Origin: Thiothrix litoralis
GTDB lineage: Bacteria; Pseudomonadota; Gammaproteobacteria; Thiotrichales; Thiotrichaceae
Direction: 5' to 3'
DNA: 64,000 bases
Assembly: GCF_017901135.1 (NCBI RefSeq)
Contig: NZ_CP072801.1
Location: forward strand, 558,001-622,000
Each line of letters starts with the position of its first letter. Within the stretch, counting starts at the first letter, position 1. Positions 32,846 to 35,353 of the stretch are shown here, piece by piece. A program made the position numbers and the translations under genes. The notes under the pieces were generated by a model, which worked only from the letters and a program-made list of their open reading frames with translations, was not told the DNA's origin and made no database searches.

Positions 32846-32884
32846 CATCTCTTTATACACAAATCAGTCCTAGTATCTGGGAAG

Positions 32885-33045
32885 AATCATCCCGGATGTA
32901 CTAAACAAGGAGTTTTCAGGATGTGGCAGGCCGCCAGCCCTTTGGGTGAACCCCGTGGGGAAGCTTGGGTCGCCACATCCAATTCTTGAAGAACCCGAAC
33001 AGTTGCCAGGGAACAACCCGCATCATCGGCTAGGATGGGAGTACA
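32885..33045 (+). ncRNA. Predicted bridge RNA of the IS110 element
   Basis: Noncoding region upstream of the transposase. A 9-base-pair stem GGATGTGGC/GCCACATCC (32919-32927 with 32972-32980) closes a large loop. One side of the loop has CAGCCCT (32935-32941), matching the left target CAGTCCT at 6 of 7 positions; the other has GGGGAAG (32957-32963), the exact complement of the right target CTTCCCC. Further on, ACAGTTGC (32999-33006) equals the element's right end ACAGTTG plus C, and CTAG (33030-33033) matches the CT core plus left end AG. This is the target-loop/donor-loop layout of IS621-type bridge RNA. The ends are approximate. Confidence 0.78.
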
Positions 33046-33050
33046 GGAAC

Positions 33051-34004
33051 ATGGAACAAACCCAAGAAACATTTATCGGCATTGATGTTTCCAAAGCACA
33101 TCTGGATGTTCATGGTTTGCCTTCTGGCGAAGCATGGCAAGCAGATAACACCAGCACCGGAATAACCGGATTGGTCGAAAAGTTGTTGCTTTGGAATGCC
33201 AGCCTGATTGTCATGGAAGCGACAGGTGGATTGGAAACGCCCATTGCCTGTGCCTTGATGGAAGCTGGCTTACCCGTTGCCGTAGTGAATCCCCGGCAAG
33301 CACGGGATTTTGCTAAAGCAATGGGGCAACTCGCCAAGACGGACAAAGTGGATGCGCGATTACTGGCCTTATTCGGAGAACGTATCCGCCCCGAAGTCCG
33401 TCCTTTGAAAGATGCTGAGCAGCAACTTTTTAGCCAATTGCTGGCACGTCGCCGTCAGTTGGTGGAGATACGAGTTGCCGAACAAAACCGTTGGTTTATG
33501 GCACAAGGTAGCGTCCGTGGGAATATCGAACAGCACCTTGAATGGCTCAAGCAGCACATTGACGATGTGGACAAAGACTTGGGGCAATTCGTGCAGGCCA
33601 GCCCCGTATGGAAAGCGAAGGAAGACCTGCTGAAGAGTTTCAAAGGTGTGGGACGTATTGCCAGTTTCACCTTGCTAGCCTCCCTACCGGAACTGGGGAC
33701 GCTCGACCGGAAAGAAATAGCGGCCTTGGCAGGTCTCGCGCCCTTCAACCGTGACAGTGGCACGATGCGCGGAAAACGTGCTATCTGGGGTGGACGGGCT
33801 GAAGTAAGGAGTTTGCTGTATATGGTGGCGTTAGTAGCATCAAGGAGTAACAATACCATCAAGAAATTTTATGAAAAACTTGTTCAGGCAGGCAAACCCA
33901 AGAAGGTTGCACTCACTGCCTGCATGAGAAAAATCCTGACCATCCTGAATGCAATGGTCAGGGATAATCAACCTTGGAACCCACAAGGGAAACAACATGC
34001 TTGA
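33051..34004 (+). CDS. IS110 family transposase/recombinase
   Basis: 317 residues from the ATG at 33051. N-terminal RuvC-like DEDD domain: [15 protein letters not shown] (first Asp), VMEATGGLE (Glu), [11 protein letters not shown] (Asp pair). C-terminal Transposase_20 domain: [40 protein letters not shown] with the likely catalytic serine, and [13 protein letters not shown]. The length and motifs are complete, so it is probably active. Upstream in-frame codons to 32946 lie over the bridge RNA region and are not expected to be translated. Confidence 0.93.
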
Positions 34005-35353
34005 CATAACATCAAGACAGTTGCTTCCCCCAATTCACTAGCCATCTGAATCCCATAAATACAGTCCAGCACCCTTGAGTAGCCCAACCAGATACTTTTA
34101 GCTCCCGGTTCGCCATCGCATTTTCTGCCCAGAAAGCCCCCCAGTTCTGCCAGATTGCGGATCACTTGATTGAGGGTAGGTATGCCATCGGGCAGTGCTT
34201 TTTTGCCGAGCCGGAAGGATACTTTCCATTCCAGCGGGTCAAACACCAGCTCAGCCGGAAGTTCTGGGCAGGTACGCCCCAACCGCATCAGAAACATAAT
34301 CCGCCAGGCCACCATGATGTAGAGCGCGAGGGCTTTTTCGATGCGCTCTTTAGTGTCCAGTTGCAGTTTTTCGACGCGACAGCCAACTTTCAGGACATCA
34401 AAAAACATTTCGATTTCCCAACGCGCCCGATACCAGTCGATGAGTTCACAAGCGGCATCGGCGGTCTCTACACAACGGTTGGTGACTAAACGCCAAATGA
34501 GGGGCGATTTTCCGGCGGGTGGGTTGATTTCTTTGGCTTGAACCAAGGTCAATAGCATCGGGTGCTTGCTCTTGGGACGCAGGGTATAACGTAACACCTT
34601 GATTTCCTGTACCACTTTGCGGGCTTTTTCACCCTGCTTGCGCGGTTTGGTAAAGGTGATGCGGGTCAACGCCTGTTGTTGCTCAATGGCATCCCACAGT
34701 TTGAGGTCATCTCCTAAGGCACGGTTATGTTGCGCCCGTATCAGCAGGTCAGCCGGGTAATCCAAGGCTTGTGCCCGTTTGAGCAAGTCGTAAAAGTCGC
34801 TTTCACGGTCGCCCGTATAGATGAGCCGGTGTCCGGGGCAGCGTGCCGCCAGTTCGGCTACCCGTTCATACCCTTCGATCCAGCGACGGCTTTCTTTGAT
34901 GCTGGGGTTCGCTTGGTCGGCGGCTTTGCTCAAGCCCCGTGACCACATCCACGTATCGGTGATGCCCAACGGCAGGCGTTCCGGGGTGATACACAAGGTC
35001 GGATGCAGGTACATCCCGCGTTGCTTATCGTAGGATAACCGCCCCAAGCCCTCGGTTTCCTGTCCATTGAAGTCCAATTCGGTGGTGTCTTGAATGCACA
35101 GGATAATCTTCGAGTCTTGTTGACGGATTCGGCACTCTGTCGCTTCAAAGTGGGATGCCATCAAAGCATCATGGCTCACCGCCTCATTCCAGAAGAAACG
35201 GTACGTCGCCAAGGTACTTGACCAACTCTGGCAAGCCTTGGGGAGGCTGGATTGGGGCGCTTTCAGCATGGCATTGAGAATATGGGCGGCGCGTGTTTCG
35301 AGGCGCTTGTCTCCCAAATCAAGATCGGTGAGTTCGCTAGATGACCAGTTCAT
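33968..35353 (-). CDS. IS50-like transposase, copy A, with C-terminus altered by the IS110 insertion
   Basis: 461 residues as read. Identical to copy B up to MASELGE; the native ending GLICV is replaced by 18 residues read from the IS110 end ([18 protein letters not shown]). Tn5-group features: N-terminal DNA-binding region [23 protein letters not shown] residues in IQDTTELDF and [13 protein letters not shown], and the YREK signature [15 protein letters not shown]. Only the last residues change, so the protein might still fold. Confidence 0.88.

Follow-up and report, generated by a model that had tools for sequence, protein, structure and literature searches.

Recombination guided by RNA is a known mechanism of IS110-group insertion sequences, published in 2024, and bridge RNAs, their guides, insertion into REP sequences and the tolerance of a mismatch at natural sites have all been treated in passages of the existing literature (PMC11208160, PMC11208158, PMC11187229, PMC1525189). 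For IS621, passages of PMC11208158 place the left donor guide (LDG) at A123-C130 and have the right donor guide (RDG) pair through AU, followed by two flipped nucleotides, a G opposite dT12 and then four pairs; the IS621 authors also mention longer right target guides (RTGs) in some orthologues (passages of PMC11208160). Sections of PMC11187229 describe for the IS110 types an upstream non-coding region that complements both target strands, as well as natural reprogramming among elements.

We describe here a clean further example, found in a window (the whole stretch of DNA analysed) of 64,000 nt from Thiothrix litoralis. The element resembles IS621 in its CT core, in the position of the RNA in the left end, in the order of left target guide (LTG), RTG, LDG and RDG, and in its homologous recombinase. 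The likeness extends to an 8-nt LDG stopping on the core C, an RDG of 9 nt in which two nucleotides are flipped and a G:T pair occurs, a handshake pair at position 7, boxes resembling a promoter at the junction and a palindromic repeat as target. It differs in its LTG, which is effectively 7 nt instead of 9, and in its RTG, which has 7 nt instead of 4. Upstream complements to both target strands and natural reprogramming are shared with the ISEc21 seekRNA and the IS110/IS1111 elements, as presented in sections of PMC11187229, but ISEc21 is a different element with different targets, and the word Thiothrix is absent from the main text of that paper. Insertion in palindromic repeats is shared with the REP-inserting ISPpu9, ISPpu10 and ISPa11 (PMC1525189), although another repeat family is used here, with a core motif found in the host genus. 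A literature search, with ISfinder and supplements beyond its reach, gave no title on this element among the matches listed.

Structure and insertion of the element

The IS110-group element occupies 32870-34023 on the forward strand (1154 bp with one core counted), beginning with the left core CT (32870-32871) and followed by a second, right core CT (34024-34025). It splits an IS4/IS50-type element on the reverse strand, copy A (32846-35405), which carries the 9-bp duplication CGGTTAACC on both sides. When the flanks within copy A are joined at one CT, they equal copy B of the same IS4 element (38245-39650, reverse strand; the protein family was assigned from this copy) in 1406 of 1406 bases. 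This identity bears out the proposal of an earlier note on this DNA that copy B is the uninterrupted target, that is, the empty site. The note had also recognised the IS110 element, rightly, but its span of 32872-34025 did not hold, and the corrected boundaries are 32870-34023 plus the duplicated CT. Because copy A has its own terminal 9-bp duplication, the IS110 element most likely arrived after copy A had inserted. Through the insertion, the last codons of the IS4 transposase of copy A were replaced, the frame at 33968-35353 now encoding 461 aa with a new C-terminus as against 448 aa.

The recombinase gene (33051-34004, forward strand) encodes 317 aa with the DEDD RuvC-like domain and the Transposase_20 domain with its catalytic serine that characterise the IS110 group (PF01548, DEDD_Tnp_IS110, E 2e-19; PF02371, Transposase_20, E 3.7e-18; both above the cut-offs). 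The protein matches the solved IS621 structure (8wt6) with an E-value of 4.8e-36, and its best solved-structure match by sequence is ISCro4 (PDB 9t56, E 2.5e-37), a comparison that covers the protein only. Residues D12, E56, D98, D101 and S236 are invariant in all 8 aligned relatives; they would align with D11, E60, D102, D105 and S241 of IS621 if the numbering of the 8wt6 chain is offset by two.

The non-coding DNA is unevenly distributed, with 179 nt from the left core to the start codon against 19 nt from the stop codon to the second core, and the longer region is thus the upstream one, as in the IS110 group. Long subterminal inverted repeats are the mark of the IS1111 group. A comparison of the 40 nt at either end of the element gave no inverted matches 7-13 nt long, one mismatch being tolerated; ends without an inverted match of at least 7 nt are as expected of the IS110 and not of the IS1111 group.

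Neighbourhood of the two IS4 copies

Copy B interrupts a type I restriction locus (37682-42574): upstream of it lies a fragment with HSDR_N, and downstream one with HsdR domain 3, followed by an open N6 methylase frame. No matching 9-bp flanks were found at copy B, and for this reason a deletion probably accompanied or followed its insertion. Further insertion-sequence pieces lie in the segment between the two IS4 copies (35913-37512), namely a short N-terminal stretch of OrfB/TnpB type (HTH_OrfB_IS605) and a DDE transposase that has a DDE_Tnp_1-associated domain.

Guides and fold of the putative bridge RNA

The four guides lie in the upstream non-coding region, all on the forward strand, in the order LTG, RTG, LDG, RDG. 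The predicted target-binding loop (32919-32980) is closed by the arms GGATGTGGC (32919-32927) and GCCACATCC (32972-32980), which form 9 bp with 100% complementarity, followed by a bulged A (32928) and an inner helix (32929-32932/32968-32971). Within it are the LTG, CAGCCCT with the core CT included (32935-32941), and the RTG, GGGGAAG, also including the core (32957-32963). The LTG matches the native target sites described below at 7/7 positions and the IS4 site, CAGTCCT, at 6/7, and the RTG is a 7/7 complement of CTTCCCC at all three genome sites. The predicted donor-binding loop (32994-33039) has an outer CCC/GGG pairing (32994-32996/33037-33039) and an inner GGG/CCC hairpin. Its LDG, ACAGTTGC (32999-33006), matches the right end plus the core C at 8/8 positions. 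Its RDG, AT(CG)GCTAG (ATCGGCTAG, 33025-33033), faces CTAGTAT of the left end; with C and G unpaired and a G:T wobble, as in the two-nucleotide flip-out of IS621, it pairs at 7/7 positions, compared with 5/7 for an ungapped register.

By analogy with IS621, 32964-32965 are putative handshake nucleotides of the target loop, where C pairs with donor G7 and U is unpaired with donor T6. The corresponding nucleotides of the donor loop would be 33034-33035, where G pairs with the C at target position 7 and A pairs at target position 6 only with the T of the IS4 site.

These features agree for the most part with the earlier note, which had read the region as an IS621-type bridge RNA. The 9-bp stem around CAGCCCT and GGGGAAG is present, as are the claimed matches of these guides to the target (6/7 to CAGTCCT, 7/7 to CTTCCCC), and the layout is that of IS621, with all four guides and even a repeat of its two-nucleotide flip-out. 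The match of ACAGTTGC to the right end was likewise correct. CTAG, which the note had matched to the core and left end, does occur (33030-33033), but it is only part of the RDG, which extends over 9 nt. As is expected of a bridge RNA, two loops thus carry guides that match, by sequence pairing, target and donor across the core.

For the target-binding loop, the folding energy is -35.6 kcal/mol (z -3.06), and 1 of 200 shuffled sequences did as well. The full non-coding region folds mildly better than its shuffles (z -1.93, 6/200), and the donor loop folded alone did not beat them (z 0.33). No Rfam family matched within 32600-34300 at E <= 1.

At the right end, TTGACA (34001-34006, forward strand; a consensus match only) overlaps the stop codon. 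In a circle, it would lie 18 nt before TAGTAT (32871-32876), a spacer that is the best of four, the -10 box matching at 4/6 positions. TTGAC is found near the right end in 15 of 18 element rows; the element of G372 shows TTGAA instead, and neither form occurs in L047 and L048.

Target sites in the host genome

The host genome (one contig, 4.28 Mb) contains two further copies of the element. The copy at C1:3190055-3191005 is identical to that of the window over 1154 bp (0 differences), and the third (L003/L004, G000:C1:82039-87584), which agrees with the window copy in its first 838 bases, is split by another element. The latter, which we take to be IS66-like, ends in GTAACTGTTCACGG repeats and comes with the 8-bp duplication GTCGAGCG. 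Both further copies of the IS110 element are inserted in CCCCAGCC-CT-TCCCCCGCAAGGGG (CAGCCCT followed by TCCCC), inside a palindromic repeat, where LTG and RTG each fit at 7/7 positions. The possibility raised in the earlier note, that other copies might sit in targets unrelated to the guides, is thus answered by two copies that fit the guides better than the IS4 site does. The window copy is the one-mismatch case, its target CAGTCCT departing from the guide at position 6.

The exact 12-mer CAGCCCTTCCCC occurs at 7 more sites in the genome, against 0 for the reversed pattern; five of these fall within that palindromic repeat, and the flanks of the other two are unrelated. With one mismatch allowed, there are 77 sites (7 perfect and 70 mismatched), against 15 for the reversed pattern. 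The commonest mismatched form is CAGTCCTTCCCC, that of the IS4 site, with 11 sites, all 11 of them at the end of copies of the same IS4 element, so that the insertion in the window reads as a one-mismatch event at a multicopy look-alike. At L049 (G000:C1:511000-511260), two IS4 left ends lie 81 bp apart, one seemingly inserted in the end of the other.

The palindromic repeat CCCATCCCCAGCCCTTCCCCCGCAAGGGGTGAAGGGAG recurs in the genome, with 5 intact copies seen (L007-L011), and the native target repeat folds as a hairpin (z -3.00 as DNA). Of 16 genomes from the genus, 15 contain the core 12-mer CAGCCCTTCCCC (reversed control, 4/16) and all 16 contain AACCCCTCTC (reversed control, 14/16, exceeding the motif in G009). 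We dropped the idea of a host-specific repeat variant matching the host's own guide, both sequences being genus-wide.

Chance agreement was assessed on a random sample of 921 CT sites of the window, using the best joint score over 6 left and 7 right positions in any placement. Six random sites scored 12 and none scored 13; of the real targets, the native one reaches 13 and the IS4 one 12. For the latter, another left window did as well as the true LTG (5/6 + 7/7). As the IS4 site taken alone is equalled by 6 of the 921 random sites, the strength of the case comes from the native sites and the relatives.

Guides and targets of the relatives

Three congeners carry elements 87-90% identical to that of the window over 1154 bp, ungapped, with different (type II) guides, LTG AACCCCT and RTG TAGAGAG, and with the target AACCCCTCTCCC. 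In their RNAs (32919-33050), 6 of the 10 programmable guide positions differ, as against 3-4 of the 122 other positions (Fisher p 2.5e-6 to 6e-6); in the coding region, 98-115 of 954 positions differ. The left targets are AACCCCT in all three, and the type II right guide fits the right targets at 3/5 non-core positions in L017 and L018 and at 1/5 in L019. A locus from a Gammaproteobacteria MAG (L012) agrees with the congener locus L019 in element and flanks over the stretches compared. The divergence of guides and targets between congeners fits what might be expected of guides that can be reprogrammed. One congener genome carries, within about 31 kb (G009:C1:1503169-1534539; L020, L022-L025), five copies, one of them partial, of an IS110 relative that is 43-44% identical.

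We then considered 15 elements for which both ends were found and the guide was distinct. Excluded were L001 (same RNA, separately scored), L003/L004 (same RNA, split copy), L014 (left end deleted), L012/L017/L019 (type II guide, covered by L018, which together with L017 fits best), L015 and L016 (ends unparsed), L020-L026 (about 44% identical or unparsed), L037, L041, L043 and L044 (one end missing), duplicates among L031-L036, and loci found later. With the best joint placement of the guides, left free for cognate and non-cognate pairs alike, cognate targets scored 180 and permuted targets 142.1 +- 3.8 (maximum 164; none of 100000 as high). In registers chosen by eye, non-core positions matched at 63/75 for the LTG and 70/75 for the RTG, compared with 30.9 and 26.9 after permutation. 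The left guide fits poorly in L046 (1/5) and in L029, L038 and L040 (3/5 each). Target positions 1 and 2 match in only 6 and 7 of the 15 elements, respectively, and the left guide of this clade is therefore effectively of 7 nt, as is the right guide.

An automated enlargement of the element set assigned wrong registers, including those of L001 and L002, and was used for clear cases only. In genome G1148 of this set, 4 of 5 copies are 1 to 3 bases off the guide, which indicates that natural mismatches are not unusual. A single-protein search of viral contigs gave no match; a search of these contigs with alignment A2 yielded 20 loci, used only in the automated enlargement.

Conservation of the RNA structure

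With offsets chosen for best pairing, the target-loop stem retains 9-12 of 12 pairs in 16/16 sequences, that of the window included. RNAalifold on a MAFFT alignment of these 16 sequences gave a partial fold of only 12 pairs, 5 with two-sided changes (covariation term -0.35), probably because the variable loops align badly. The stems were then excised by a fixed rule, with non-cognate arms as the comparison: among the 15 elements, cognate arms form 7.87 of 8 pairs and non-cognate arms, given the same freedom, 6.92 (0/100000 permutations), although 12% of the non-cognate pairs of arms reach 8 too. The enclosing stem thus goes on pairing through sequence change, in line with the compensatory changes that the earlier note had foreseen, and as is expected of a bridge RNA. 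In alignment A1, the outer and inner pairs of the donor loop are conserved, some with two-sided changes, this support consisting of a few pairs.

Mechanism and alternatives

The native copies, the agreement of the relatives' guides with their own targets and the maintained pairing of the stem support the bridge RNA reading. Judging from the anatomy of the element and its natural insertions, we are highly confident that it works by bridge-RNA-guided recombination. The excised ends would join at CT, thereby placing TTGACA before TAGTAT, from where transcription of the upstream non-coding region may start. The RNA would fold into two loops, one binding the target and the other the donor. LTG and RTG, which pair in sequence with opposite target strands across the CT core, would bind them there, and LDG and RDG would likewise bind the circle junction. 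The DEDD/serine recombinase would then swap strands at CT, leaving one CT at each end of the element, as the empty site shows. The guides carried in this genome are written for CAGCC-CT-TCCCC in the palindromic repeat, and the copy in the window landed in the most frequent of the look-alikes with one mismatch, at the end of an IS4 element present in many copies.

One might argue instead that the matches between guides and targets are due to chance or are a by-product of C-richness, and that the protein, or else the shape of the palindromic repeat, picks the target. Guides and targets are indeed C-rich in this genome, and the native target is a repeat able to form a hairpin. Such an explanation is hard to reconcile with cognate pairs outscoring permuted ones over 15 elements with varied guides, with the IS4 site lying outside the palindromic repeat, and with congeners whose different guides go along with the occupation of different sequences; we regard it as extremely improbable. 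It could also be that the structured leader chiefly regulates translation of the transposase, as in the case of the small RNAs and 5' UTR of ISPpu9, with pairing to the target being secondary. The location of the RNA directly upstream of the start codon speaks for this view, which however predicts neither the guide-target nor the guide-donor matches. Regulating translation and guiding to the target are mutually compatible roles, and that regulation should be the chief one seems very unlikely to us.

The mismatch at target position 6

Where the left guide has C, target base 6 of the IS4 site is T. The donor-loop handshake nucleotide A167 (IS621 numbering; 33035) is unable to pair with the native C6 and pairs with T6 of the IS4 site. 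L046, the only other curated element with a mismatch at position 6, has a handshake that pairs as well (U:A), though its left guide is a poor fit on the whole (1/5). Among the 15 elements and the IS4 site, handshake pairing is found at 2/2 mismatched and 2/14 matched sites, a pattern scored by eye and noticed post hoc. In the automated set (59 loci, 37 distinct rows), it is found in 7/16 rows flagged as mismatched and 4/21 matched rows, with 7 of the 16 flags contradicting the curated registers. One might speculate that handshake pairing rescues guide mismatches in nature, a suggestion that we consider unlikely.

Significance

This case shows that raw sequence is enough to read a bridge RNA, and natural insertions enough to check it. 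The element has a compact recombinase of 317 aa and guides in a 7+7 layout, and both perfect native targets and filled as well as empty sites are at hand. Among the congener elements, the guides have been rewritten and the RNA scaffold hardly so, and the one-mismatch insertion provides a natural case for off-target rules. If handshake rescue were general, guide and handshake bases would together decide the off-target choice of bridge recombinases, which could be predicted.
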